This document shows, in pieces, positions 3-19,054 of a stretch of 38,004 bases of DNA (its first letter is position 1; each line of letters begins with the position of its first letter). The notes beneath the pieces are model-generated. The model was not told the origin of the DNA. It did not search any database and saw only the letters and a program-made list of their open reading frames with translations. The translations under genes were made by a program, and so were the position numbers. Source of the stretch: Gammaproteobacteria bacterium (GTDB lineage: Bacteria; Pseudomonadota; Gammaproteobacteria; Steroidobacterales; GCA-2729495); contig JABDLC010000039.1 of NCBI GenBank assembly GCA_013001905.1, forward strand, positions 1 through 38,004, in the 5' to 3' direction.

Positions 3-557
3 GCCGTGCGCGGCACGACCAGCCCTATTCCACTGGCGCATATCGCATCCGAAGACGCCATCATGGCATCCGGCATGAACTGGACTTTCGTGCGACCGAG
101 CTTCTTCATGCAGAACTTCCGCAGCTCGCTCGACGCTGCACGCAAAACCGGCAAACTTTCGATGCCAATGGGCGACGGCACAGTCGCACTGACCGACACG
201 GCCAATGCCGGCGAGTTCATTGCCAAAGTCCTGACGGATGCAGACTCAACTCAGCACTACGGCAAGTACTACGACATTACGGGCCCCGACCCGGTTATGA
301 CCTTTCAGGATGTCGCTAATGTCATCGGCGAGGTCATCGGCCAGAAGGTTGAATACGACGACTGTGACGCTGATGCCTTTCAGGAGGCGATCCGGCCGTT
401 CCATCGCAATGACTGGCACTCCGATGCGGTCGCCTACCTGTTTGCAGAGATTGCGAACGGGAACACTCCCGGCATCAAAACTGACACCTTTCAGACGATG
501 ATGGGTAAGCCCGGCACCTCGCTGAAAGAGTATCTGCTGGCAATCGACAGTCAGTAA
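3..557 (+). CDS. NmrA-like NAD(P)-binding reductase, C-terminal part (5' end outside window)
   Basis: This is the C-terminal ~184 residues of an atypical short-chain dehydrogenase of the NmrA/HSCARG type. The reading frame is open to the window edge, so the N-terminal Rossmann part with the glycine-rich nucleotide-binding loop lies outside and cofactor use cannot be judged. Visible family features are the segment NWTFVRPSFFMQN, a substrate-side region with the GKLSMPMGDG turn, and the DITGPDPVMTFQDVA stretch typical of NmrA-like proteins, where a C-terminal helix pair follows the sheet. Members act as NAD(P)H-dependent reductases or redox sensors in the cytoplasm; the substrate is unknown. 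The stop lies 24 bases before the quinoprotein dehydrogenase on the same strand, so the two may be co-transcribed. The family call is fairly safe, the function is not. Confidence 0.75.
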   Translation, partial: AVRGTTSPIPLAHIASEDAIMASGMNWTFVRPSFFMQNFRSSLDAARKTGKLSMPMGDGTVALTDTANAGEFIAKVLTDADSTQHYGKYYDITGPDPVMTFQDVANVIGEVIGQKVEYDDCDADAFQEAIRPFHRNDWHSDAVAYLFAEIANGNTPGIKTDTFQTMMGKPGTSLKEYLLAIDSQ

Positions 558-581: not shown

Positions 582-2534
582 ATGATGCGCACACTACTCG
601 CAATCCTTTCTGTGCTCGTCGGTTGTTCAGCAGCAGCCAGTGACTGGCAACACACGGGTGGCGACATCGGCGGCTCACGCTATTCGCCGTTGGCACAGAT
701 CAATAAAGACAATGTCGGTGATCTGGAGATCGCGTGGCAGGTGCGCACGGGCGAGATGGATAAACGCGGGCCGCTCGCGGCCGCGGGACAATTTCAGGCA
801 ACGCCCGTCCTGACGCCCGAAGCCGCAGGCCAAAGCCTGGTCCTGTGCACGCCGTGGAATAAGGTGATCGCTCTCGACCCTGTGAGCGGCGCCGAGCGCT
901 GGTCCCATGACCCCAAAGCGAAAGGATTACCGCTGTATAACTGCCGCGGCGTCACCTACTGGGAGAACCTCGCCGCCGGGCCAAACGATGCCTGCAGACA
1001 CCGCATCGTATCGGGCACCATTGATTTGCGCATCATGGCGCTGGATGCCCGCAGCGGCGAACTGTGTGCCGATTTTGGCGACGGCGGCTACGTGCAAACG
1101 AAAGACATCATCAAAGCCGAAAGCCCGGCAATGAAGCGTGGCGACATCAAATACTTTTCAGCGCCGGTGATTGTTGATGATGTCATTGTTATCGGCTCGG
1201 CGACATTCACAAAAAACAAATCAACCACGGGGCCCAGCGGGGCCATCCGCGGCTTCGCGGCAAGCAGCGGGGAGCATCTGTGGTCATTTGATCCCGTACC
1301 GCGGGACCCGGCGGACCCGCAGCACGGCACCTGGACTGCAGAGGCGCTGCAGTCGGTCGGCGCAGCGAGCGCCTGGGCGCCGTTGTCCGCAGACCCGGAG
1401 CGCGGACTGGTGTTCGTGCCCACATCATCTGCCACACCTGATTTTTTCGGCGGGAACCGCCCGGGCGACAATCGCTACGCGAACTCCACGGTAGCATTAC
1501 GCGCCACGACCGGCGAAGTCGTGTGGCACTTTCAGAACATTCATCATGACGTATGGGACTGGGACACACCTGCGCAGCCGATTGCGGTCGACATTGAAAA
1601 AGACGGGCGCACGGTGCCGAGCGTTATTCAGCTGACGAAACAGGGGCTGACCTTTACCTTTGACCGTGACACCGGTGAGCCCGTGTTTGCCGTCGAAGAA
1701 CGTGCGGTGCCAACTGCCACTGAATTCGACGACGAGCTGTCGCCCACGCAGCCTTTCCCGGTCGCGCCACCACCGCTCGCAGCGAACGGCATTTACCCCG
1801 ACGACGCGTGGGGCCTGACACCGTGGGACCGGGGCAAGTGCCGTGAACTGATCGAATCGCATAATCACGGCCCGGTGTTCACTCCGCACAGCACCAAAGG
1901 CTCGATCACGGTCACTTCAATTAATAACTGGGCCGGCGGCGCTTACGATCGCCGCAACAATCTGCTCATTACGAACGTATCGAATATTTTCTGGCTGACC
2001 AAGATTACTGCTGAAGCTGATTACGACCCCGCATCGTCGAGCAATTTTGGCCCGCCGGCTCCGGTTATCGATGGCTGGGGCTATGCGGTTACCCGGCAGC
2101 CGCTACTATCGCCCTGGAATATTCCCTGTACGGCACCGCCGTGGGGCAAGCTGGTCGCGATCGACATGAGCAACGGTGCAATACGCTGGGAAGTGCCGCT
2201 CGGCACACTCGAAAAACTCGTGCCTTTCGAACTGCCCTTCGGTCTGCAACTGCCGATCCCCTGGGGCACCCCGGGAGCTGCGGGCGGCCCGATTGTGACA
2301 GGCTCCGGCCTCATCTTTATCGGTGCTACGTCGGACGAAAAATTCCGTGCGTTCGATGTGGCCAACGGTGAAGAGTTGTGGAAAACCGCTTTACCGACAT
2401 CTGCCAACGCAACACCGATGACCTATGCCATTGATGGCAAGCAGTACGTCGTGGCGGTGTCCGGCGGGCATGTCTGGCAATACCCGAATGTCTCCGACTA
2501 CGTGACCGCGTACGCATTGCCTTCAGCCAAATAG
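582..2534 (+). CDS. PQQ-dependent dehydrogenase, glucose/quinate dehydrogenase type, exported
   Basis: This 650-residue quinoprotein of the eight-bladed propeller family oxidises an alcohol, sugar or polyol in the periplasm using PQQ. The opening GGDIGGSRYSPLAQINKDNV and the later NIHHDVWDWDTPAQ (about residues 318-331, containing the aspartate that acts as catalytic base in glucose dehydrogenases) are hallmarks of the membrane glucose/quinate dehydrogenase group. The five-helix membrane anchor of E. coli Gcd is missing. The N-terminus is instead a short export signal ending LSVLVGC, which fits a lipobox, so a lipoprotein is possible; ordinary signal peptidase cleavage after SAAAS is the alternative. 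Two ATGs occur at 582 and 585. A GGAG at 578-581 abuts the first, so the second may be the real start. No cytochrome c domain and no pqq synthesis genes are present. The substrate cannot be told. Confidence 0.85.
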   Translation: MMRTLLAILSVLVGCSAAASDWQHTGGDIGGSRYSPLAQINKDNVGDLEIAWQVRTGEMDKRGPLAAAGQFQATPVLTPEAAGQSLVLCTPWNKVIALDPVSGAERWSHDPKAKGLPLYNCRGVTYWENLAAGPNDACRHRIVSGTIDLRIMALDARSGELCADFGDGGYVQTKDIIKAESPAMKRGDIKYFSAPVIVDDVIVIGSATFTKNKSTTGPSGAIRGFAASSGEHLWSFDPVPRDPADPQHGTWTAEALQSVGAASAWAPLSADPERGLVFVPTSSATPDFFGGNRPGDNRYANSTVALRATTGEVVWHFQNIHHDVWDWDTPAQPIAVDIEKDGRTVPSVIQLTKQGLTFTFDRDTGEPVFAVEERAVPTATEFDDELSPTQPFPVAPPPLAANGIYPDDAWGLTPWDRGKCRELIESHNHGPVFTPHSTKGSITVTSINNWAGGAYDRRNNLLITNVSNIFWLTKITAEADYDPASSSNFGPPAPVIDGWGYAVTRQPLLSPWNIPCTAPPWGKLVAIDMSNGAIRWEVPLGTLEKLVPFELPFGLQLPIPWGTPGAAGGPIVTGSGLIFIGATSDEKFRAFDVANGEELWKTALPTSANATPMTYAIDGKQYVVAVSGGHVWQYPNVSDYVTAYALPSAK

Positions 2535-6067: not shown

Positions 6068-6916
6068 TCAGCTGCCGAGTTGCAATACACCCAGATAAAC
6101 GCTGTCGTCCCCAAGCTCAAATGCCTGACTGCAGCGACCACCCTGCCCGCTGACCTCAACTGCATACGCGCCGCTGCCCGGAACCAGCTTGTCGACCTTG
6201 AACTCACCGAAGGTGTCGGTCGTGCTACGCGCCACTTCGCTACCGTCTTTCCTGACGATTACTTCAGCATCCGCCACACATTCCTCGACTCCGTTCAATT
6301 GCGCGACCACAGACCCGCTGACGAAACACCGGTTAAAAAAGTGCATGTTTTTGTAATACACCCTGGGCTTTGTGCCGAGCTCCGGCTGCAGCACCTCTAG
6401 TCCCTCATCAGCAACGATGCGCTGCATCTCGCTGTCGTCAACTTTGACAGACCGGAATACATCCATCGCACAGGACTGCTCTTCACGCGTTTGTTCCCAC
6501 CCTTCATCGAACAGGTGCGCGTCAAAAATCCATGCCTGCGGCAGCTGCAGCTCTTCATTCCATGAGATAGCACCATACGGGCAGGCATCGACAATTTGTT
6601 TCTGCCCTTTCGCCTTTTCAGGGTCGATGATCACAAGGCCATCGTCACGTTTCTTCACGGCCCCGTTTTCTGCCGCCTTCATGCACGGCGCATCATCACA
6701 GTGATTGCACATCACCGGCCTGAAGTGCGCATCCATAATCGGATAGCTGCCCCGTTCGTGACGCTCAATTTCGAGCCAGTTATGACCCATTGCAGGCTGC
6801 GGCGCTGCATAGCCCGGAAAATCGTTACCCGTGTGCTCGTCCTTAACCGCCAGAAAGCATCCGCGACAGTTATTGCAGCGCTCGACGTCGACGATCATGT
6901 TCCATTTCTTCGACAT
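6068..6916 (-). CDS. Transhydroxylase-like small subunit, ferredoxin-type with C-terminal Ig-like domain
   Basis: This 282-residue partner of the molybdenum subunit resembles the small subunit of pyrogallol-phloroglucinol transhydroxylase. Shared features are the order VERCNNCRGCF, then CNHCDDAPC, IIDPEKAKGQK, DACPYGAISWNEE, then LQPELGTKPRVYYKN, and finally a C-terminal beta domain with the GEFKVDKL turn, as in that family's carboxypeptidase-regulatory/Ig-like domain. Only C14, C17, C20, C70, C73, C78, C112 and C149 remain. By comparison with the three-cluster family pattern, positions 24, 129, 132 and 153 are V, W, D and V. One [4Fe-4S] site (C70, C73, C78, C112) looks complete and the others are damaged. 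The start at 6916 is chosen because ATG overlaps the large-subunit stop as TAATG behind GGAGGAGG; the 19-residue extension upstream is not credible. The protein has no Tat signal and should be cytoplasmic. Confidence 0.85.
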   Translation of the reverse strand: MSKKWNMIVDVERCNNCRGCFLAVKDEHTGNDFPGYAAPQPAMGHNWLEIERHERGSYPIMDAHFRPVMCNHCDDAPCMKAAENGAVKKRDDGLVIIDPEKAKGQKQIVDACPYGAISWNEELQLPQAWIFDAHLFDEGWEQTREEQSCAMDVFRSVKVDDSEMQRIVADEGLEVLQPELGTKPRVYYKNMHFFNRCFVSGSVVAQLNGVEECVADAEVIVRKDGSEVARSTTDTFGEFKVDKLVPGSGAYAVEVSGQGGRCSQAFELGDDSVYLGVLQLGS

Positions 6917-9891
6917 TACGCAGCCTCCTCCGAGCTCGGTTGAACCGGCTTCCAGGTATCCACACCGGACCATTTTTCGACTTCAATGAGTGTGGTGTTC
7001 GGCCGGATACCGTGACTCTTGGTGGTAATCGGCTTGCTGGTGTTGAGCACATTGACGCAGCCGCCCAGATCGGTTGACTTGCCGGGCTCGCCGGCAGGGC
7101 GATACTCGGCGGAAGCCGTGGGCGCGCTCACGACACCCGGGCGCAGCCGGTCAGTAACCTGCGCCGCGCAGACCACGGAGCCCCGGTCATTCCACAGACG
7201 AATCAAGTCATCGTCCTCAATGCCACGTGCCTCAGCATCCTCACGGCTGAGACGTGCGGTGAGGTAATAGTGGTCACCCACTTTGACCCGATGCTCGCGA
7301 ATATCGCGCAGATAGCAACCCTCGTCATCACCCATCAGATGGAACGGATAGCGCGAATGCGGAGTCAGCAGCTGCAGTGAATACTTTGCCGCGATCTCCG
7401 GTTCGTTCTCTGCGTTCTCAAAGGTTTTCATGTAGCGATTCACAGGCGGACGCTCCGGGTCATCGAAACGCTTCAATGTGGTCGGCACAAACTCGTACTT
7501 GCCCGACGGAGTCTGCAGACCCTCTGCGTATTTTTCGATGTAGTCGGACGGCAGCGGATAAGGCTCCGGCACGTCTTTTTTGCGCCCCTCGTAGAACCAG
7601 CGCAATCCGGTCGGTGCGCGTGAACCCTCCGGCTCCGGCTTCACGACGTAATAGCCCTTCTTCAGGAATTCGCGCCACGACATATCCTTTGCGCAATCCG
7701 AAGACTCGTACGCTCGTCTCGCCCACTCGAACTCTGAGTTGCCACCCTCGGAATACACCGCACCCAGGTCAAGGCGCTCGGCAATCGAGAGGAAAATATC
7801 GTAATCGGACTTCGACTCACCCAGCGGCTCAATGCATTTGTGCTGCATTGAGACCACGCGATGGTTATTCATCGAGTACATGTGATGCACATAGCCCGGG
7901 CCGACGTTGTACCACTCACCCAGATCCCAGCGCTCAAATACCGTGCAGGCCGGCAAAATGACATCAGCAAACTTCGTTTCGCCTTCCATCCAGATCGACT
8001 GGTTGACGACAAATTTCAGGTTGTCGTGCTGATACATGTTGGCCCAGCGATTGGAATCGACCTGCGTACCGAACGACGAACTGCCGTATTTGTAAATCAT
8101 CTCGACCGGCACATGTCCGGGTGAGGGGTAGCCGATCGGAAAAAACTGGCCGACGACAGAATCAACGGCCGTCACGTAACCGAGCTTCGGCTTACCCATG
8201 ATGGCCTCGGGTAACCACATGCGCGGAATCACCTGCTTGACAGAGTTCATCGTCACGATGTGCGGCATACGCTGATAGTTATTGGTCGACTGCGCGCTGT
8301 ACGCCAGATCGCCGGACATGCTGCCCTCGGCATAGCCGGGGAAGTAAAAACTCATGTCGACCGGCGCACCGAATTGCAGATTACCGAGGTTGGAGCCGGG
8401 GCTGCCGATGCCCTGCATGGCCGCGAGTATGGTCATCATCCGGGCCCACTGCGCACCCGTCGGGCCACGACAGGCGCCGCCCAGACCGCAACCCCAGCCC
8501 CCGGCACCGAGGTAGGTTTTCTTGCTGGCCCACTCACGCGCGAGCGCCCGGCAGTCACGCGCCGGGATACCGGTCTCCGCTTCCTGCCACTCCGGCGTCT
8601 TCGGTATGCCGTCGTCTTCGCCCAGCACGTGGGCTTTCCATTCATCAAAACCCGTGGTGCGATTCGCCACAAACTCTTTGTCGTAGGTGCCTTCGGTAAT
8701 CCAGACCCAGGTGAGCGCCTGCGCAAACGCGGTGTCAGTACCGGGTTTCGGTGATATCCATTTGCCGCCCAGATGCGCAGCGGTGTGGTTCAGGTACGGG
8801 TCGATGTGCACCATCTTGATGCCGAGCTCTTTGGCCCAGCGCCGCCGCTCGGTGCCTTCAAAGCCGTAGGAAGCATCCGGGTCGCTCGACCAGAACACCA
8901 TCATGTCGGCTTCTTTAAGGCAGTCCTCGACTGTTCCGTAGGGCTCTGCCGCACCCAGACGCATGCTGTTGCCCCAGTGATGCTGCGCGCCCCAGAACCA
9001 GCCTTCCCAGCTGTCCGGTGTATGCATCAGCTTCGTAACGCCGATCAGGTTCCAGAAACGGTTAAACGCTGACAGGTAGTGGCCCAGGTTGCCCCACTGG
9101 TGATGCGAGCCGTTGGCGACCGCGATCGCGCCGGGGCCGGCCTTCTTACAGCGCTTGATTTCACCGACGACGATATCGAGCGCTTCGTCCCACTCAATTT
9201 CCACAAACTCTGACTTGCCACGATTCTGAATGTTGCGCTCGCCGTGCGGGTCAAAGTCAACTCGCTTCATCGGCTTGAGGATGCGGCTCTTCGAATACAC
9301 CATCGACTTCTGACAGGCGCCGTGCGCGGCCAGCGTAGTGCGCCGGGGCGGCTGGAAGGTCTTGCCGCGGGCTTCGATCGTATAACCTTCCGGGTCGTCC
9401 GCGCCGAGATCCATCGGCGTCGTGCGAAGAATCTTGCCGTCTTTGACATAGACAAAGATCGGCCCGCCATTCGTGCCGTTGGTGTAACGCGTTACACCGT
9501 TGCCCATGTCAGTGCCGATGGTCCAGGTATACGTCTCCATACTGGCGACGAGGTGCATGAACCAGACGATCAGGCTGTCCGGCCCGTCCATCGTAATCTG
9601 AAAATTCTTCGCCGCATGAATGCGCTCAAGCTGATCAAACGGCGGGGTCAGGAAATCCGCCGCGATCTTTGAATTCTTGAAGAAAATCGTGAAGTCAGGG
9701 TTTTCATGGATACCGGCACCGGTGGAAATCTTGCCGTTTTTCAGCTGTATCCAGCGACCCTTGGGCTTGTCCTTGGTCTGAAACTGAGCGATGCAGTCAC
9801 GCTCTTTCAAACGCTCTTTAAATTTCGGGAAAATGGCCGCGCAGGTACGCATGGCCTGCGGGATGCCCCAAAGAATGACAGCTAATCTCAT
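6916..9891 (-). CDS. Molybdopterin oxidoreductase, transhydroxylase-like large subunit with extra N-terminal SCP2-like region
   Basis: This is a 991-residue enzyme of the DMSO reductase superfamily, expected to carry molybdenum bound to two molybdopterin guanine dinucleotides. From about residue 130 it resembles the large subunit of pyrogallol-phloroglucinol transhydroxylase. It lacks the usual N-terminal iron-sulfur cysteines and carries KRVDFDPHGERNIQNRGKS (209-227), NGSHHQWGN (260-268), TPDSWEGW (291-298) and a dinucleotide-binding C-terminal domain (about 838-970). H263, D293 and S294 have the spacing of His144, Asp174 and Mo-ligand Ser175 as I recall them in the Pelobacter enzyme. Residues ~20-125 are an addition resembling an SCP2 lipid-carrier fold. 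A ribosome site AGGAG precedes the ATG. The VOC gene ends 2 bases upstream and the small subunit overlaps the stop. The reaction is unknown: hydroxyl transfer, hydration or hydroxylation are all possible. Confidence 0.85.
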   Translation of the reverse strand: MRLAVILWGIPQAMRTCAAIFPKFKERLKERDCIAQFQTKDKPKGRWIQLKNGKISTGAGIHENPDFTIFFKNSKIAADFLTPPFDQLERIHAAKNFQITMDGPDSLIVWFMHLVASMETYTWTIGTDMGNGVTRYTNGTNGGPIFVYVKDGKILRTTPMDLGADDPEGYTIEARGKTFQPPRRTTLAAHGACQKSMVYSKSRILKPMKRVDFDPHGERNIQNRGKSEFVEIEWDEALDIVVGEIKRCKKAGPGAIAVANGSHHQWGNLGHYLSAFNRFWNLIGVTKLMHTPDSWEGWFWGAQHHWGNSMRLGAAEPYGTVEDCLKEADMMVFWSSDPDASYGFEGTERRRWAKELGIKMVHIDPYLNHTAAHLGGKWISPKPGTDTAFAQALTWVWITEGTYDKEFVANRTTGFDEWKAHVLGEDDGIPKTPEWQEAETGIPARDCRALAREWASKKTYLGAGGWGCGLGGACRGPTGAQWARMMTILAAMQGIGSPGSNLGNLQFGAPVDMSFYFPGYAEGSMSGDLAYSAQSTNNYQRMPHIVTMNSVKQVIPRMWLPEAIMGKPKLGYVTAVDSVVGQFFPIGYPSPGHVPVEMIYKYGSSSFGTQVDSNRWANMYQHDNLKFVVNQSIWMEGETKFADVILPACTVFERWDLGEWYNVGPGYVHHMYSMNNHRVVSMQHKCIEPLGESKSDYDIFLSIAERLDLGAVYSEGGNSEFEWARRAYESSDCAKDMSWREFLKKGYYVVKPEPEGSRAPTGLRWFYEGRKKDVPEPYPLPSDYIEKYAEGLQTPSGKYEFVPTTLKRFDDPERPPVNRYMKTFENAENEPEIAAKYSLQLLTPHSRYPFHLMGDDEGCYLRDIREHRVKVGDHYYLTARLSREDAEARGIEDDDLIRLWNDRGSVVCAAQVTDRLRPGVVSAPTASAEYRPAGEPGKSTDLGGCVNVLNTSKPITTKSHGIRPNTTLIEVEKWSGVDTWKPVQPSSEEAA

Positions 9892-9893
9892 CG

Positions 9894-10892
9894 TTAACTC
9901 CTGACCTGAAACAGTTCCTGCAGCGCACCGCTGCCGGGATTACGCACGATCATTGCCATGCAAACGCCGCGACCGGGCAACGCGATTTCAACCGGCGCCG
10001 TAAATACCTCAGCGCCCTGCTCCGCACAGGCAGCCGCGATCGCCTGCAAATCCTCAACTTCAAACGCTTGTGCGATGTAGCCGATGTTCGGCGCGACAGC
10101 ATCGGGCACCAGACTCGCGACCTCGTAATTCATCGGTGCAGCCAGCGCGATCTTGCCGTACTCATGACTACCCTGCACCAGTACACTCCGCGTGCGGGCA
10201 TCTGCAGGCAAATTCGCCATGCGATTGGCGGCTTCGTTCTCGATCACCCCATCCGAAAACGTCGTCATACCCAGCGGACCGAAATAAAACGCCAGCGCCT
10301 TATCGATATCGGCAACGGTATGCGCAGTCGTTGCCACCGGCGTAAAGCCGGTCGGCGTGCGCCCGTAGCCGTTCACGAAGTGCCACAGATGACCAATCAT
10401 AGATTCTTCATCTTTACTGAGCAGCTCCACGAGATTGATCACCACGCCGTCGGGGCCCTCAAACGCGAACTCCATTGCCTCGCCGACAGCGGGGCCGAAG
10501 TTAATGTGATTCGGCTCACTCCAGAACTCGTATCCCTGCGCAGACAGCTGCTCATAGTCGCGCTTCACGTCGCTGGTATAGATATTCAGATTGAACAGAC
10601 CAATCGCGCGTTTCACACCCGCCTTACGAATTTGTTTGCGCTGGTCACCGCTGAACTGCAGCAGCTGTATCCGGCCGACGGGATCGGCACCGGATGCGAG
10701 AAAGCTGTAGCGCGCCGTGGTACCTGCCGGCACCTGCCAGTACGACTCGAAATCAGCGCCCGCCAGAGTCCCGCTGTCAGTCACATCGAGGCCGAGAATT
10801 CCGGCATAGAATTCGAGTGACTGGTCGAGATCCGCGACACTGATAATCACGGCACTGACGGGCACACTGCGGGCGTCCTGTGTATTGTTCAT
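9894..10892 (-). CDS. Two-domain VOC family protein, first gene of the molybdoenzyme operon
   Basis: This 332-residue protein has two vicinal-oxygen-chelate (glyoxalase/extradiol dioxygenase fold) units. The first starts at VSAVIISVADLDQSLEFYAGILGL and ends at GPDGVVINLVEL. The second starts at TVADIDKALAFYFGPLGM and ends at NPGSGALQELFQV. The usual first-strand histidine is absent from both halves. The C-terminal glutamate is asparagine in the first half (VINLV) and may survive in the second (QELF). A classical metal-dependent dioxygenase is therefore unlikely without other ligands. ATG at 10892 is preferred over the TTG extension to 10979, which would abut moeA; the ribosome site is weak. 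The stop is 2 bases before the molybdenum large subunit, so the products are very likely made together and may act on the same compound. Confidence 0.82.
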   Translation of the reverse strand: MNNTQDARSVPVSAVIISVADLDQSLEFYAGILGLDVTDSGTLAGADFESYWQVPAGTTARYSFLASGADPVGRIQLLQFSGDQRKQIRKAGVKRAIGLFNLNIYTSDVKRDYEQLSAQGYEFWSEPNHINFGPAVGEAMEFAFEGPDGVVINLVELLSKDEESMIGHLWHFVNGYGRTPTGFTPVATTAHTVADIDKALAFYFGPLGMTTFSDGVIENEAANRMANLPADARTRSVLVQGSHEYGKIALAAPMNYEVASLVPDAVAPNIGYIAQAFEVEDLQAIAAACAEQGAEVFTAPVEIALPGRGVCMAMIVRNPGSGALQELFQVRS

Positions 10893-10961: not shown

Positions 10962-10980
10962 GATAATGATTTTTATCAAT
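10962..10980. promoter_or_regulatory. Fur-box-like sequence in the divergent region
   Basis: The minus strand of these 19 bases matches the classical Fur consensus at 14 of 19 positions by my own count, with the right half AATCATTATC intact. It lies in the 86-base region between the divergent VOC/molybdoenzyme operon and moeA and overlaps the first two bases of the moeA start codon. It is strikingly AT-rich for this region. A chance match or another regulator's site is possible. Confidence 0.3.
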
Positions 10981-12202
10981 GATTACATATGAACAGGCGC
11001 TCTCAAGCGTACTGGAGACGCTAACACCGCTCCCCGCCACCACGCAGCCGTTAGCGGATGCGCTCGGTCGCGTTGCAGCAAGCGATCTCTTTACGGAGCA
11101 GGCGGTGCCGCCGTTCAGTAATTCGGCCATGGACGGGTTTGCATTGCGCTCGGTGGACAGCCCGGCCGCTGGCGCGACGGTTGAACTGGAGGTCACTGAC
11201 CTGCTGACCGCGGGTGAAGCCGGCAGCGATCTGCATGTGGGCCCCGGCGGTTGCTGCGAAATCATGACGGGCGCGCCGGTGCCGGACGGCTGCGATGCGG
11301 TTATCCCCGTTGAACAAGTGGAGATCCACCGCGCAACAGATGGCAGGCCGGTCTCCATCACACTTGACCAGCATGTCGCCGCAGGTCGCAACCTGCGCAT
11401 GGCGGGTGAAGACTTTGCGGCGGGCGATCAACTACTTGCCACCGGCCAACTGGTGACAGCCGAACGGGTGATGGGGCTCGCCGCGACGGGCATCAGCCAC
11501 GTCGAGGTTCACGGCAAACCGCGCGCCGCGGTGATTACCACCGGCAACGAACTCAGCGACAGCCCAAAGCTGTCGCCGGGCATGATCAATGACGCCAACG
11601 GCCCCTATCTGCAAAGTGCGGTCGCGAGCTTCGGCGCCGACCTCGACGGCGTGTACCGTACCGGCGACGACGCCACCCGGCTCATCGAAAAGATCGAGTC
11701 ACTTACAGGTAACGACATCATCATCACGACCGGTGGTGTTTCGGCGGGACGCATGGATTTCGTACCTGCCGCACTTGAACAACTCGGTGCGGATATTTTG
11801 TTTCACAAAGTTGCGATCCGCCCGGGCAAACCGGCACTGTTTGCGCGACTGCCGGACGGCCGCGTGGTGTTTGGCCTCCCCGGCAACCCGATCGCCGTCG
11901 CTGTCGGCATGCGTTTTTTTGTCGTGCCGGGCATACGGCGTTTGCGTGGCCTGCCGCAGGAACGGTATGCAACTGCAAGACTGATCGACTCACATCACAA
12001 AAAGGCCGGGCTTACTTTTTTTGCCAAGTCATACGCGGAAACAACGGCAAACGGGGAGATGACCGTGCAAATTCTGCCCGGACAACAGTCGTTCAAAATC
12101 AAACCGCTGATGCGCGCGAATTGCTGGGCGATTGCCGGCGCCGACAGCGAAAACCTGCAGGCGGATACGGTGCTCAGGATCGCACCGCTAGGCGCTGATT
12201 GA
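10979..12202 (+). CDS. moeA: Molybdopterin molybdenumtransferase MoeA
   Basis: MoeA inserts molybdate into adenylylated molybdopterin to complete the molybdenum cofactor. The 407-residue length and domain order are normal: ALGRVAASDLF, VPPFSNSAMDGFAL (about residues 43-56), ITTGNEL, the MoCF-binding block DIIITTGGVSAGRMDF (about 243-258), VAIRPGKPALFA and VFGLPGNP, and a C-terminal beta-barrel domain. It is divergent from the operon encoding a molybdenum enzyme, and mobB lies about 6 kb away. The region is thus enriched in cofactor genes and this copy may be dedicated to, or co-inherited with, the nearby enzyme. Whether other moeA copies exist elsewhere cannot be seen. The ribosome site before the ATG is poor. 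The gene ends 13 bases from the convergent MFS gene. Confidence 0.94.
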   Translation: MITYEQALSSVLETLTPLPATTQPLADALGRVAASDLFTEQAVPPFSNSAMDGFALRSVDSPAAGATVELEVTDLLTAGEAGSDLHVGPGGCCEIMTGAPVPDGCDAVIPVEQVEIHRATDGRPVSITLDQHVAAGRNLRMAGEDFAAGDQLLATGQLVTAERVMGLAATGISHVEVHGKPRAAVITTGNELSDSPKLSPGMINDANGPYLQSAVASFGADLDGVYRTGDDATRLIEKIESLTGNDIIITTGGVSAGRMDFVPAALEQLGADILFHKVAIRPGKPALFARLPDGRVVFGLPGNPIAVAVGMRFFVVPGIRRLRGLPQERYATARLIDSHHKKAGLTFFAKSYAETTANGEMTVQILPGQQSFKIKPLMRANCWAIAGADSENLQADTVLRIAPLGAD

Positions 12203-13553: not shown

Positions 13554-14471
13554 CTATACAGGCGCAAATACGTCTACCATCAGCCCTGTCGGTGACCGTA
13601 CCGTCGCGAGCGTGACCCGACCGAACAGCAATTCAACATCACCGTGATGCGTCACATCCAGCTGCATGCGCTCCGCCCGTCGCTGCCAGTCCGCGAAACC
13701 GGCCACAGCAAAACGCACCGCCAGGCTGCCGGTTGCGGGCGGTATGGCGCCCGGATACAGGTTGTCGCCATCAATGCCGGTGTACGCGACCAGCTCAACG
13801 CGACCGTAAAGATTGACGGGATCACCAAGCACCCGCATGTCGAGTGCCGAGCCCGGCGGCAACCCGACCACCGCTTCGATCTCGGGCCCCGTGATCCGGT
13901 GCTGCAACAATTCCTCATGACTGAACAGCGCGGAAAAAAAACGGGCTTCGGCAGCTAGATCGCTCACTGTGGCCACAAACGATGTGACGCCGCTGAAACC
14001 GGCGCCGGTCATCTCCATATCCCACTCGGGCACTTCGATCAGTACGACATTAATCGCATCGTGTGCCGGCATCTGAACTTCGCGTACGGTCAACCCGTCG
14101 ATCTGGTACTCACTGACTTCAGAACGAAAACTGAAACCGGCGGCCTTCAGCTCCGCGACACGCCGCGGCATATCGATGCAGTTGATATCGATGTTTTTCG
14201 GACACAGTGCGGTAGTCGCCGCGTTCTCACGCACGGGCCGTGCCGGTGTTGTGAACTCGACAAAGTGCAGCCACCCGGTTTGCTCGCCGGGGCTGCGCAA
14301 CAACAGCTGCCCGCTGATGCCGCCCTCAGGCAGTCCCCATATGTTTTCCAGTACAGGGTCGCTACCGTGACGCTCGGCCACTGTTTCCAAACCGAAGTGC
14401 TGACACCAGAGACGGCGCACCGGGGTCAGGTCAGCAACACCAACAACAATCTGGGCAATGGATGAAATCAC
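13554..14471 (-). CDS. Two-domain VOC family protein (second copy type)
   Basis: This 305-residue protein is made of two vicinal-oxygen-chelate units. The first runs from IAQIVVGVADLTPVRRLWCQHFGL to the DAINVVLIEVPEW strand, the second from VTSFVATVSDLAAEARFF to SPTGLMVDVFAP. The position of the usual first-strand histidine is Q in the first half and S in the second, and the final metal glutamate is D in the second half. The divalent-metal site of glyoxalase or extradiol enzymes is therefore largely missing. It differs in sequence from the other VOC protein at 9894-10892 but has the same two-unit plan, so they are probably old relatives with related ligands. The start is GTG at 14471, with TTAGG nearby as a possible ribosome site. 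It diverges from the luciferase-like gene. Confidence 0.8.
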   Translation of the reverse strand: MISSIAQIVVGVADLTPVRRLWCQHFGLETVAERHGSDPVLENIWGLPEGGISGQLLLRSPGEQTGWLHFVEFTTPARPVRENAATTALCPKNIDINCIDMPRRVAELKAAGFSFRSEVSEYQIDGLTVREVQMPAHDAINVVLIEVPEWDMEMTGAGFSGVTSFVATVSDLAAEARFFSALFSHEELLQHRITGPEIEAVVGLPPGSALDMRVLGDPVNLYGRVELVAYTGIDGDNLYPGAIPPATGSLAVRFAVAGFADWQRRAERMQLDVTHHGDVELLFGRVTLATVRSPTGLMVDVFAPV

Positions 14472-14535
14472 AGGCCTAACCTACAATAGCCGCGGCACGC
14501 ATTCATCCCGTGATGCGCATACCGGAACCAGCAGT

Positions 14536-15633
14536 ATGGATATCGACATTATTCTCGAGTGCAATGTCAGCCCGGCACAGGTTGCCGAGCTGGCTGTCGA
14601 AGCCGAAAAGCTGGGCGTCCGCGCAATCTGGACGTCTAACTACCATCAGGACTACGACTGCTACATGGCGCTTATGCCCGCCGCCGCAGCGACCTCACGA
14701 ATAAAACTCGGCGTGATGGCCGTAACGCCGTGGGAATTACACCCGCTGAAAATGGCGAATGCCACGCATACGCTCAATCAGTACTCCAAAGGCCGGGCGC
14801 TGGTTTCCATCAGCGGCGGCGGCGGCGTACTCGGCGCCATCGGTTGGCGAATCGACAAAGATGCACCAATCTGGCCGTTCAAAGACCCGGTCACGCTGGC
14901 CCGCTACCCTGAACGCCGGGTCCGCGGACTGATTGAGACCATCGAGATTCTTAATCTGTTCCGCAGCGGCAAGATGACATTCAATTACGACGGCGAAATC
15001 TTTCAGATCACGCGGCCGTTCCAGAATAAATTCGACCAGTCGGACGAGCCGTTTTTTATTTACGGCTGCTGCAGTGGCCCAATGATGATCCGCGCCGGCG
15101 CGCGCATTGCCGACGGCGTCTTCCTGTCGGACTACACACCCGAGATGATGCCGGTCGCTCACGAGAACCTGGAGCGGGGATTCGCCAAACGCGAATGGCC
15201 TCGCGACAACTTCCGGATTAACAACTTCTGGGCCTGGCACATCAAGAAAGACCCGGAGCAGTCACGGATCGAGGGTAAAAACGAACTGATCTGGCGCGGC
15301 GCGATTGCAGGCAAGTACGCCCACGATATTCGACCCCATGTCGACAGCGATGAAGAGACCCAGATGATTATCGACAACTGGGACAACTTTCTGCAGCCGT
15401 TCTGGAAGCGCGACGGCATCATCCCGAACGTGCCCGAAGCAACCGCGACAAAATTGCTCGATGGCATGTCCTCATGGGGTGGAATCGATGCCATCGACGG
15501 CGAAATTGAGCGCTACAAAGCGTTTGCGGATGCGGGCCTCACAGAGCTCTCGCTGCGGTTGTTTGATAACCCGATGGACAGCCTGCAACTGATCGGCGAG
15601 CACGTGCTGCCGAAACTCCGCGATTACCAGTAA
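14536..15633 (+). CDS. LLM-class flavin-dependent oxidoreductase (luciferase-like monooxygenase)
   Basis: This 365-residue TIM-barrel enzyme of the bacterial luciferase/F420-dependent superfamily has the family-typical strand-helix units: VAELAVEAEKLGVRAIWTSNY, ATSRIKLGVMAVTPWELHPLKMAN (counterpart of the conserved strand 3-4 region), LNQYSKGRALVSISGGGG and GARIADGVFLSDYTPEMM. The ISGGGG run is a likely phosphate-binding stretch for FMN or F420. Such enzymes use reduced flavin and oxygen to hydroxylate or do Baeyer-Villiger chemistry, or use F420 for hydride transfer. The flavin-reductase-like gene 2 kb away could supply reduced flavin. ATG at 14536 is chosen because the 26 residues read in frame from 14458 overlap the divergent VOC gene and do not look like the fold. 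The substrate is unknown. Confidence 0.83.
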   Translation: MDIDIILECNVSPAQVAELAVEAEKLGVRAIWTSNYHQDYDCYMALMPAAAATSRIKLGVMAVTPWELHPLKMANATHTLNQYSKGRALVSISGGGGVLGAIGWRIDKDAPIWPFKDPVTLARYPERRVRGLIETIEILNLFRSGKMTFNYDGEIFQITRPFQNKFDQSDEPFFIYGCCSGPMMIRAGARIADGVFLSDYTPEMMPVAHENLERGFAKREWPRDNFRINNFWAWHIKKDPEQSRIEGKNELIWRGAIAGKYAHDIRPHVDSDEETQMIIDNWDNFLQPFWKRDGIIPNVPEATATKLLDGMSSWGGIDAIDGEIERYKAFADAGLTELSLRLFDNPMDSLQLIGEHVLPKLRDYQ

Positions 15634-15646
15634 CCGTTAATAGCTG

Positions 15647-17455
15647 TCAGGGATGACACTCGGAGGATTCGCAGTCCGGCGTTACAAGTGAACCGATGCC
15701 GCTGAACGCTTCGCCATCCAGAGTGCCGCCGATCAGATCCACGTGCGTGTCTTCGCACACGATGCCTGCCGCCTGCACGTCAAAGGTAAAGGCGGCATCC
15801 TGCAGAGCGTCACCGTCAAAGTCGCCGTACTGCGGCGCTCCGGTGATCAGTGCCTCACCGGTGCCGAGCTGCACCGTTGAGTCATTGATGCGTGTCACGT
15901 CAAGGTCAGCAGGGTCACCGGCTGCCTCACTGCTGCCAAGCACCGCAACCACCACGTTGGTATCGGTGTCCGGATCAACTTCGTTCGCTGCGCTCCACGG
16001 GTCAACATCAATTAGCGCCATCTTGGGCGCGAAGCTCTCAAAGGCCAACAGCCTGTAGCTGCCGTCCTGTATGAGTGTCGTACCCCCCAGCCAGTGGTTG
16101 CCGTTGCCCACCGTAAAATCAATGACACCGGTGGTCTGCGGATGCGCCGCGACATATGACGCGAAATGCGCACCCTGATTCGGGTTCTGCCCCAATGCTG
16201 CCACGGACATCGACGAACCCAGTGACTCTAAAAAGCCATTCCAGGTACCGAAGTTGTACGTGTTGTAGTGCGATACGGCCGCAAACACGATGGTGCCGCC
16301 GGTGTACAGAAACTGCCTCATTACGACGACTTCATCCGCCGAGTAATACACATGGTCGCCCAGCCCAATGTGCAGATACAAAACGGCGACGCCTTTCAGT
16401 TTGTGCGCTGTAATCTCACCGCTGTAACGCTCGGACGTCACGCCGGACAACGCGTTGTAAAACTGGTCAAGCGCTATATTCGGCCAGTAGTTCGGCTCAT
16501 GAATGAGCACACCGTTGCCGCTTCCGAGCAAATTGAGAGCGAACACATCGTTGTCGTTGCCGAAGTCATCGACCACATAGAACGGAAAGGTTTCGGAAAC
16601 AATCACTGTGCCGGGTGCCCAGACAGGAATCTGGCTGCAGTTGCTCGTCACCAGCGGTACCTGCGCCATAAAAGGCTCAAGGTTGTTGCGCTGACCACGC
16701 AACAGCGCCTGCGTATCGCCACAGCGGATGCCCGTGTCCTCGGTGCGAAACACGAACGCCGCATCGTTGACGCCATCGCCGTCGTAATCGCCATACAACG
16801 GCGACTGCGCAATATTGGCAGCCTGGCCCTCACCAAAACTGAAGGCCGCAGCATCAATGTCAGTGACGAAGAAGTCGACGGGGTCGCCTGCTGCCATGCT
16901 TTGCCCCAGCACCGCGAGGTAAAGTGAATTGGTGGAATCCGGTTCCACGATATCGTCGGTCGTCCACGGATCAAGGTCCGCGTCAACAGCCAGCGGATTC
17001 ACCTCGTTAAAGGCAATGAAATGCGAGATTGCATCCAGCGGGCCCGCGCCATTATTGGCCGAGTCCGTCCACTTCTGGTTTGTCCCATAGTCAACAGAGC
17101 CGCCCAACCAGTAGGGAGTGGTAGTGCCGTATATTTCACGAGGCAAGCGCCAGCCCGGACTCGCTTCTGCGGCATTCGGGCCGGCGTCGACGGCCAGCGA
17201 AGCGTCAAGCACTTCCGCGACCAGCGCCCTGGCAATGCGCGCCCCGGCCTGATTATCGACAAACGGCGCTTTGCCATCGGCCTGAAGATCATTAAACGTA
17301 GTGCGGATGAACTCGACGTCGTACAGCGTTCCCTGCACCTCGAGATTGCGGATGCCCGTCGCCGTGGTGCCGTCCAGGATGACCTCGGCAGCCGAGAGCA
17401 TTGAGGGAGTGCCCAATACCATCAGTAGTAACAATCTGCCCAATTTGCTCTGCAC
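15647..17455 (-). CDS. Secreted protein of unknown function with a duplicated acidic module
   Basis: I do not recognise this 602-residue protein. It has a clear export signal (KLGRLLLLMVLGTPSMLSAA) and is otherwise hydrophilic and acidic. Residues about 161-271 and 484-594 are two copies of one module: both run DPW, a stretch of D/E, AVLG-S--AAGDP-D, then YGD-DGD---DAAF, then G-I-C-DT. The YGDYDGDGVNDAAF and YGDFDGDALQDAAF loops look like calcium-binding DxDxDG loops, and the cysteines may pair within each module. The middle (about 280-470) has a Rossmann-like feel (KGVAVLYLHIGLGDHVYYSADEV, RQFLYTGGTIVFA), reminiscent of glutamine-amidotransferase-like domains in secreted proteins; this is only a resemblance. 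The start is GTG with a distant GGGG. It ends 13 bases from the convergent luciferase-like gene. Confidence 0.75.
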   Translation of the reverse strand: MQSKLGRLLLLMVLGTPSMLSAAEVILDGTTATGIRNLEVQGTLYDVEFIRTTFNDLQADGKAPFVDNQAGARIARALVAEVLDASLAVDAGPNAAEASPGWRLPREIYGTTTPYWLGGSVDYGTNQKWTDSANNGAGPLDAISHFIAFNEVNPLAVDADLDPWTTDDIVEPDSTNSLYLAVLGQSMAAGDPVDFFVTDIDAAAFSFGEGQAANIAQSPLYGDYDGDGVNDAAFVFRTEDTGIRCGDTQALLRGQRNNLEPFMAQVPLVTSNCSQIPVWAPGTVIVSETFPFYVVDDFGNDNDVFALNLLGSGNGVLIHEPNYWPNIALDQFYNALSGVTSERYSGEITAHKLKGVAVLYLHIGLGDHVYYSADEVVVMRQFLYTGGTIVFAAVSHYNTYNFGTWNGFLESLGSSMSVAALGQNPNQGAHFASYVAAHPQTTGVIDFTVGNGNHWLGGTTLIQDGSYRLLAFESFAPKMALIDVDPWSAANEVDPDTDTNVVVAVLGSSEAAGDPADLDVTRINDSTVQLGTGEALITGAPQYGDFDGDALQDAAFTFDVQAAGIVCEDTHVDLIGGTLDGEAFSGIGSLVTPDCESSECHP

Positions 17456-17506: not shown

Positions 17507-17609
17507 GATCACGCGAAAAAGCCTGGAGCGCGACGCATACGGGAAAACAACTATTTTGCGGGAGCTGCAGTGCGCTTAGGCTGTGCGGGTCTGTTTCAGG
17601 AATCCCGCT

Positions 17610-18545
17610 GTGAATCCATTATTTAATCTGTTTTCAGTTTTTGACGGCCTGCGCCGGCCCAGCCGGGTGCGAGGTGAAGCATGGAAACGCCTGCACCCGA
17701 AAGACAATTTCTACCAATCCGTCGCGTTTTTCCCGATGCCGTTTGCACTGATCACTACGGTGAATGAGGAAGGCGTCACATCCATCGGCCCGCACTCGCT
17801 GTCGTTCCCCTTCGATCTGATCGAGGAGCCGTCGATGATGGTGGTGTCGCGCGCGGGCTCCAACACCGCGACGAATCTGCGGGCCGGTCGCACCAAAGCA
17901 GCGCTGCACTTCGTTGAATTCAAAAAATCGTGGCTAAAAAGCATTGTGGGGCTGGGATACCCGGGCCTGGAACCGCAGGACAAGATGCAGGACATCCCGT
18001 TCGAAATGGTGCGCTCAACGTCACCCGAGTACCGGGATGACCCGGATTTCCCGCTGCTGATCAATGAGGCCTTTCAGGTCTTCGAGTGTGAACTGGACGG
18101 CGAATTCAAATATCACCCGCATCGTGAAACTGACCCGATCGCCGCAGAGAGCTTTCTCTGTCTGAAGGTCAAAAATGTACTACTGAAACAAAGCTTCGAG
18201 CAAAAACTGCTGAACCAGAAACAGTTCCCGAATATGCCGATCTCGTACGGGTTTCGTCACAATGACAAGGAACGGCGCTTTTTCTTTTCCTCACACAACA
18301 AACCCTTTCCCGTACATATTCCGAGCCCGCCGGGTCTGGAGCATCAGGCGATCTATTACTCGGCGAATAAGCTGGATCCCGAGGTTCGATTCACGGAAGA
18401 CGCCTGCAAACTGCTCGTCGATGTCCCGAAAGCATTTATTAATGTTGCGCTGAAAGGGATCATTAAAGAAGCGAAAGCACAGGGAGTGGATTTCGTGGAC
18501 GAGGAATTCATGAAAGCGTTCAACGAAAAACGCAAGAATTCTTAA
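17610..18545 (+). CDS. Flavin reductase-like FMN-binding split-barrel protein
   Basis: This 311-residue protein belongs to the flavin reductase / FMN-binding split-barrel superfamily. The core is visible as FYQSVAFFPMPFALITTVNEEG, TSIGPHSLSFPFDLIEEPSMMVVS and TATNLRAGRTKAALHFVE, the usual strand pattern where FMN binds. Later come VFECELDGE and FLCLKVKNVLL. It is longer than ordinary flavin reductases (about 170 residues), with a C-terminal extension of about 100 residues that I do not recognise. It may reduce flavin for the luciferase-like monooxygenase at 14536 or hold FMN for its own chemistry. GTG at 17610 is preferred over GTG at 17583 because CAGGAA sits eight bases before it. Its stop overlaps the convergent mobB stop by four bases (TTAA). 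Confidence 0.75.
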   Translation: MNPLFNLFSVFDGLRRPSRVRGEAWKRLHPKDNFYQSVAFFPMPFALITTVNEEGVTSIGPHSLSFPFDLIEEPSMMVVSRAGSNTATNLRAGRTKAALHFVEFKKSWLKSIVGLGYPGLEPQDKMQDIPFEMVRSTSPEYRDDPDFPLLINEAFQVFECELDGEFKYHPHRETDPIAAESFLCLKVKNVLLKQSFEQKLLNQKQFPNMPISYGFRHNDKERRFFFSSHNKPFPVHIPSPPGLEHQAIYYSANKLDPEVRFTEDACKLLVDVPKAFINVALKGIIKEAKAQGVDFVDEEFMKAFNEKRKNS

Positions 18546-19054
18546 CCACGCTGCAGAACAAAATCGACGATAGCGGGCACGTTATCGCGGGGCAACACCG
18601 GTACCGGGGCGTCCGCGATGGCGTAATCAGCAACGATCGCGACGATGGCCGGGTCATCATTGGCCAGTTCCGAATGATCGTAGCCCGCGCGACGCAGTTC
18701 CAGCTTCGGATGAGTACCGTGCTTATAACCCTCAACGAGCACCAGATCGACCTCGCCCAGCCGGGCCAGCAGCGCATCAAACGGCGGCTCATCTTCTGTG
18801 CCGAGTTCTCGTATCTGTGCCCAGCGACGCGACGAAGCCACAATCACCTCTTCAGCCCCGGCTGCCCGGTGCTGGTAGCTATCCTTGCCGGGATGATCGA
18901 TATCGAAGTCGTGGTGCGCGTGCTTAATCGTCGCCACACGCACCCCTCGCTGCCGCAGCTCCTTAATGAGCTCAACGACAAGCGTGGTCTTGCCGGCGTT
19001 TTTAAAGCCGGCAACACCGACTATCTTCAGGGTTTCGCTGCCCAGGCAGAACAC
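18542..19054 (-). CDS. mobB: Molybdopterin-guanine dinucleotide biosynthesis protein MobB
   Basis: This 170-residue GTP-binding accessory protein helps MobA attach GMP to the molybdenum cofactor, giving the bis-MGD form used by DMSO reductase-type enzymes such as the one encoded at 6916-9891. It shows the P-loop GFKNAGKTTL (residues 16-25), ATIKHAHHDFDIDHPGKDS (about 41-59, the family signature with the conserved histidines), and LVLVEGYKHGTHPKLEL, which is typical of MobB. Length is normal. The start is uncertain: GTG at 19054 lies inside the HiPIP gene, giving a 28-base overlap. A CTG at 19030 overlapping the HiPIP stop would give the family's usual start near KIVGVAGFKNAG. Translational coupling to HiPIP is likely either way. 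Confidence 0.92.
   Translation of the reverse strand: MFCLGSETLKIVGVAGFKNAGKTTLVVELIKELRQRGVRVATIKHAHHDFDIDHPGKDSYQHRAAGAEEVIVASSRRWAQIRELGTEDEPPFDALLARLGEVDLVLVEGYKHGTHPKLELRRAGYDHSELANDDPAIVAIVADYAIADAPVPVLPRDNVPAIVDFVLQRG

Follow-up and report, generated by a model that had tools for sequence, protein, structure and literature searches.

We found that a molybdenum enzyme encoded in a stretch of gammaproteobacterial DNA of 38,004 nucleotides (hereafter, the window) carries an N-terminal SCP2 (sterol carrier protein 2-like) domain on its large subunit and lacks part of the cluster-binding Cys of its small subunit, two features that go beyond an earlier note on this DNA. The enzyme certainly belongs to the PF21423 transhydroxylase-like family, to which, to our knowledge, only two biochemically known members have been assigned, both from anaerobic phenol degradation. 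The name pyrogallol–phloroglucinol transhydroxylase, taken as a statement of the same function, is not supported, as the defining features of that function were looked for and not found. With a probability of roughly 0.4, we favor the reading that this is a cytoplasmic Mo-bisPGD enzyme that transfers or shifts a hydroxyl group, without net redox change, on a hydrophobic ring substrate bulkier than pyrogallol, and that it serves core metabolism and not the breakdown of pyrogallol.

Operon layout and surroundings

The genes for a VOC protein, the large subunit and the small subunit form an operon at positions 6068–10892 on the reverse strand (Table 1). The earlier note had described three genes packed with a 2-base gap and a TAATG overlap, and both junctions could be read in the sequence, with the genes placed as it said: the VOC stop (9894–9896) is followed by two bases and the large-subunit ATG at 9891 (TAA-CG-ATG), and the large/small junction reads GTAATG, so that the stop codon of the large-subunit gene and the start codon of the small-subunit gene overlap. 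Two starts differ from the mechanical open reading frames, which give 6068–6973 for the small subunit (real ATG, 6916) and begin the VOC protein from a TTG at 10979 (ATG, 10892). All genomes used here are metagenome-assembled, and that of the window (G000) is 92% complete with 5% contamination; it is very unlikely that the operon is a contamination artefact, because it is present across the window's family.

Table 1. Positions of the operon, its domains and selected neighboring genes in the window
Feature	Position	Strand	Basis
Two-module VOC protein, first operon gene	9894..10892	-	Pfam, orthologues
Large subunit, Mo-bisPGD (DMSO reductase superfamily), PF21423 family, 991 aa	6916..9891	-	Pfam, solved relative, alignment, tree, model
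N-terminal SCP2 domain, residues 1 to about 118 (extension 1–132)	9538..9891	-	fold match
PF21423 AhtL-like domain 1, residues 143–197	9301..9465	-	Pfam
Active-site stretch H263 ... D293-S294 (Mo ligand position: S294); H271-Y272 in place of Y152-R153	9010..9105	-	alignment
Small subunit, 282 aa counted from the TAATG start codon; ferredoxin-like with C-terminal Ig-like domain	6068..6916	-	
Region with the four lost cluster ligands: V43, W148, D151, E164 (ORF numbering from 6973), equivalent to Pelobacter C23, C126, C129, C145	6482..6847	-	
NmrA-like NAD(P)H-binding protein, cut at contig end; orthologues beside large/small subunits in 12 relatives	6..557	+	
MoeA (inserts molybdenum into molybdopterin), transcribed away from the VOC gene; neighbor in several relatives	10979..12202	+	
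Second, distant VOC-like protein, 24–25% identical to the VOC orthologues	13557..14471	-	
Luciferase-like (LLM) oxidoreductase, 81% identical to its L006 counterpart	14458..15633	+	
MobB (molybdopterin guanine dinucleotide synthesis), about 8 kb from the operon	18545..19054	-	

Neighbors of the enzyme in relatives include TorD-like, NmrA-like, MFS and MoeA proteins. The window also encodes a cbb3 oxidase (COX1, FixP, FixG, Cu ATPase) and a HiPIP, which, with the LLM flavoenzyme, are the oxygen-related neighbors that the earlier note had reported. The nearby Moco genes need not form a cluster dedicated to the window enzyme, as the same genome also holds, on contigs C40 and C141, two further Mo enzymes. 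These belong to the type II DMSO reductase family and resemble ethylbenzene and steroid-C25 dehydrogenases (TIGR03479, TIGR03478). Several other genes were observed in passing. A periplasmic PQQ-dependent dehydrogenase of the glucose/quinate/shikimate family without a membrane domain is encoded at 582–2534 (+), and a homologue lies between the VOC and large-subunit genes in locus L008. At 15647–17455 (−), a 602-aa frame was matched by neither Pfam nor NCBIfam; it has a signal-like N-terminus and a pair of similar repeats (DxDPW...YGDxDGDxxxDAAF), and probably encodes a secreted protein. A conserved 320-aa protein at 17583–18545 (+), near the LLM enzyme, has no Pfam match, is 81% identical in L006 and looks, by eye, split-barrel flavin-reductase-like. 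In the alphaproteobacterial loci L044, L047, L048 and L049, a DUF1838 protein occurs in the transhydroxylase neighborhood, directly upstream in three of them.

The large subunit and its SCP2 domain

The large subunit matched PF21423 (AhtL-like domain 1) with 85.5 bits against a cut-off of 27, as well as Molybdopterin (99 bits) and Molydop_binding (57 bits). Its best solved relative was the Pelobacter transhydroxylase, which carries hydroxyl groups from one phenol to another in an anaerobic fermenter (4v4c_A; E = 4e-264, 882 bits), followed by DMSO reductase with 216 bits, and its predicted model fitted the 4v4c_A crystal structure from residue 130 with Z = 41.7 over 828 residues at 48% identity (next Z, 31.8). 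The kinship with the Pelobacter enzyme that had been proposed for this subunit is thus borne out, at a level well above chance. Overall, the window enzyme shares with Pelobacter acidigallici AthL/BthL (PDB 4v4c) the two-subunit make-up, PF21423, a Ser at the Mo-ligand position, equivalents of His144, Asp174, Tyr404 and Trp176, and the Ig-like tail, whereas an extra SCP2 domain, the reduction of the cluster Cys from 12 to 8 and a VOC partner gene set it apart.

In an alignment of 77 rows, for which the Pelobacter sequences were taken from HMMER alignments (residues 4–869 of the large and 3–274 of the small subunit), H263, D293 and S294 fell exactly on H144, D174 and S175, and Y520 on Tyr404, so that the Ser at the Mo-ligand position, the His, the Asp and the Tyr are all present. 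The earlier note had placed the first three residues correctly, but they do not single out transhydroxylase activity: H144, S175, W176 and Y404 are identical in 77 of the 77 aligned relatives and D174 in 76, which makes the three residues a signature of the family that says little about the substrate.

Residues at the presumed substrate-pocket positions of the Pelobacter enzyme (R153, W354, F468 and C557) differ. In the window enzyme, Y152-R153 is replaced by H-Y (R153 by Y272), W354 by L470, F468 by T574 and C557 by V663, and across the window clade these four positions hold Y, V or L, T, and V, respectively. H271 is specific to the window clade, with Tyr at this position in all 23 other sequences, and about a dozen further residues are diagnostic of the clade.

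Catechol dehydroxylases and acetylene hydratase belong to the same Mo/W-bisPGD superfamily and act on phenols or alkynes, in some cases with redox-neutral chemistry, but they lie on another branch (46 bits to acetylene hydratase), and the window enzyme has Ser, not Cys, at the metal-ligand position. A reductive dehydroxylase, or another reductase of a hydroxylated ring that takes in electrons via the small subunit, would share the superfamily and its reaction types on phenols with the catechol dehydroxylases (PMC7028382). These enzymes are closest to acetylene hydratase and away from PgtL (PMC7028382), which is not so for the window large subunit (46 vs 882 bits), and the electron chain is interrupted here (see below); we consider this reading improbable.

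The 4v4c_A match begins at residue 133; residues 1–132 are absent from the Pelobacter enzyme and conserved wherever a related locus extends that far. When modeled by itself with AlphaFold2 (pLDDT 81), the N-terminal domain aligned with a human SCP2-like protein over 111 residues (Z = 12.4, rmsd 2.5), and the leading rows of a Foldseek search (E about 1e-5) were all SCP2 or SCP2-type, including UbiJ and C-terminal domains of alkylsulfatases. The assignment is one of fold, because Pfam SCP2 (PF02036) gave no match at 0.001 for the window protein (12.5 bits vs a gathering threshold of 21.3); at a limit of E = 1 it was weakly seen in 16 of the 34 relatives, the best value being 0.0017. SCP2-extended enzymes formed a single clade on the tree (support 100), and the extension was a single change. 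SCP2-less and SCP2-fused large subunits adjoin each other in four loci (in tandem in L066, in opposite orientation in L067, L097 and L099), in some of which each type has its own small subunit. A search of the open-access literature, which is weak evidence of absence, found no paper on an SCP2-fused transhydroxylase.

As SCP2 domains occur in UbiJ and UbiT, and the fold matches include UbiJ, we considered an O2-independent ring hydroxylase of ubiquinone biosynthesis. Against this, the window genome already has COQ7 and a pair of UbiH/UbiI-type hydroxylases, all encoded within a span of about 10 kb, on which ground we ruled the reading out; moreover, the presence of the large subunit does not track that of COQ7 across the family, and relatives occur in Acidobacteriota, which mainly use menaquinone. 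It retains at most a marginal probability. As a separate observation, a COQ7 match was missing from 17 of 40 genomes of the window's family (f1), for example from the single-contig genome G467, with UbiH-type hydroxylases kept, which suggests that ubiquinone ring hydroxylation differs within the family.

The small subunit and the electron path

The small subunit matched 4v4c_B with 258 bits along its whole length (23–299), including the C-terminal Ig-like part, in accord with the ferredoxin-like subunit with an Ig-like tail given in the earlier note; residues 218–279 had a CarboxypepD_reg-like match. The ferredoxin part of the Pelobacter subunit contains 12 Cys. Of these, eight are kept in the window clade (13, 16, 19, 68, 71, 76, 109 and 149; Pelobacter numbering), and Cys 23, 126, 129 and 145 are missing in all 61 window-clade sequences where those positions are reached. 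Positions 126 and 129 hold W and D in every case, giving the pattern CCC-x-CCCC-WD-x-C. On the tree, the change of C126/C129 to W/D was a single event, and C23 and C145 were lost later, in several steps; all 12 Cys are kept in the deep relatives L063, L069, L071, L074, L066, L068 and L070 and in the SCP2-less forms. By the standard ligation pattern of 2[4Fe-4S] ferredoxins, rather than by coordinates, the four positions belong to one cluster. To judge from these sequences, one of three [4Fe-4S] clusters has probably been lost from the window-clade small subunit, together with the fall from 12 to 8 Cys.

We looked in the large subunit for the Cys motif of an N-terminal [4Fe-4S] cluster (FS0) before the Mo domain and found none. 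With the chain in the small subunit broken and this motif missing, electrons are unlikely to have a route away from the Mo site, which would favor redox-neutral chemistry, although electrons could still leave via the two remaining clusters to some partner. Such an exit is part of the main rival to our reading, namely an oxidative hydroxylase that, like resorcinol hydroxylase (RhLS), would place a water-derived OH onto a phenolic ring and pass two electrons to an acceptor along a shortened but conducting chain. By published description, RhLS of Azoarcus anaerobius belongs to the same Ser-ligated family, with RhL and PgtL as one family (PMC10100899); respiring aerobes are among the window-clade relatives, and a HiPIP and a cbb3 oxidase lie in the same window. 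The missing ligands of one cluster and the lack of FS0 speak against it, as does the absence of a hydroxyquinol-type intradiol dioxygenase from 40 of 40 family genomes, and we regard it as rather unlikely.

Another candidate is an enzyme that hydrates, dehydrates or isomerizes a non-aromatic enol or ketone. In its favor, redox-neutral chemistry fits the lost cluster, and the genus has neither of the ring-cleavage dioxygenase classes searched (intradiol and LigB-type). However, the equivalents of the phenol-handling residues H144, D174, Y404 and W176 are strictly kept, and we give this reading only a small chance.

Distribution, downstream pathways and proposed function

The enzyme was found in 37 of the 40 genomes of the window's family, and the three without it are 70–87% complete. 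Elsewhere in the order it occurred in about a tenth of the genomes (about 26 of 256), and in a sample of 398 genomes from the phylum only one or two, including that of the window, were above the cut-off. SCP2-extended relatives are present in many Pseudomonadota and Acidobacteriota genomes, so that the description as an enzyme of strict anaerobes, given in the earlier note, is too narrow. Related loci from genomes labeled Alphaproteobacteria and Acidobacteriota are about 70% identical, which indicates strong purifying selection. Up to four PF21423 enzymes were found per genome in family f98 of the same order.

The VOC gene largely co-occurs with the enzyme: an orthologue was present in 33 of the 37 enzyme-bearing family genomes and in none of the three others, and in 26 genomes it lay on the enzyme's strand, at most 3 kb upstream. 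The VOC protein has a conserved E326, and by motif the two usual His positions of the 2-His-1-Glu triad of type I extradiol enzymes are non-His; it has no close solved relative.

We also searched for pathways into which the product might flow. Intradiol dioxygenase (PF00775) was found in 0 of 40 family genomes, and LigB-type dioxygenase (PF02900) in 5 of 40, none of them in the window's genus; aerobic cleavage of hydroxyquinol or gallate rings was rejected on these counts. Phloroglucinol catabolism in the host was likewise rejected, as a query for the phloroglucinol-pathway cyclase and the beta-keto-acid cleavage enzyme (BKACE) had no match in the 92%-complete window genome, in which, in contrast to the Pelobacter system, no cyclase or lyase of this pathway was found.

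The deep, SCP2-extended enzymes of L063 and L069 present a different picture. They share the SCP2 domain and about 55% large-subunit identity with the window enzyme, but keep 12 small-subunit Cys, and genes for an SDR, a cyclase, a 3HCDH-like protein (3-hydroxyacyl-CoA dehydrogenase) and BKACE lie directly upstream. In these 'Deltaproteobacteria' genomes, L069:1223–9499 and L063:1–7963 make up an apparently complete pyrogallol-to-acetoacetate cluster. The same four enzymes form the phloroglucinol pathway characterized in Clostridium scatologenes (PMC10470551), and part of the SCP2 clade is therefore probably a pyrogallol-pathway transhydroxylase. In another branch (L073, L098), TPP enzymes of the acetolactate synthase type are encoded nearby.

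These loci bear on the reading that automatic annotation would give, a true pyrogallol–phloroglucinol transhydroxylase feeding phloroglucinol catabolism. The best solved relative is exactly that Pelobacter enzyme, and SCP2-extended L063 and L069 sit with the C. scatologenes-type set. Nevertheless, the cyclase/cleavage query that was empty for the window genome did match distant homologues in 12 of the 40 family genomes, and the pathway-linked relatives are unlike it in the pocket-candidate residues and in one Fe-S cluster; for the window enzyme, we find this reading distinctly unlikely.

Since nearly every family genome has the enzyme and no catabolic pathway was recognized downstream of it, a core function is indicated. 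The proposal of the earlier note that the reaction is a different, undescribed one gains indirect support (40 genomes without intradiol dioxygenase, a host genome without cyclase or BKACE, a genus without LigB-type dioxygenase and the loss of one cluster) and falls short of proof. In the reading that we favor, a two-subunit PF21423 transhydroxylase-family enzyme would have been repurposed, with the SCP2 domain binding or presenting a substrate that exceeds pyrogallol in hydrophobicity. H263, D293 and Y520 may act as acid/base and hydroxyl-binding groups at the Ser-ligated Mo. One hydroxyl would be added and one removed, by transfer or positional shift, and no net electrons would leave the protein, which agrees with the missing FS0 motif and the broken small-subunit chain. 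The VOC protein probably binds or isomerizes the substrate or product, and the pathway would be a core one of these aerobic bacteria rather than gallate/pyrogallol fermentation.

At present, near-universality argues for a core role and is no proof of it, and an SCP2 domain need not mean a lipid-like substrate, because L063 and L069 have the domain and yet sit in phloroglucinol-pathway clusters. Only tentatively do we extend the favored reading to the whole gammaproteobacterial family: with an SCP2-fused, cluster-reduced enzyme of the transhydroxylase type, these aerobes would transfer a hydroxyl group on a hydrophobic ring compound in a redox-neutral reaction that is as yet undescribed and part of core, possibly biosynthetic, metabolism.

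For this group of enzymes, widespread in Gammaproteobacteria, Alphaproteobacteria and Acidobacteriota, automatic annotations of the type 'pyrogallol hydroxytransferase' are probably incorrect. The role of the small-subunit clusters is puzzling in the Pelobacter enzyme, the net reaction of which is not redox. In this respect the window clade amounts to a natural experiment that opens the clusters' role to direct tests, since a single deletion of one cluster has persisted in it alongside a retained active site.
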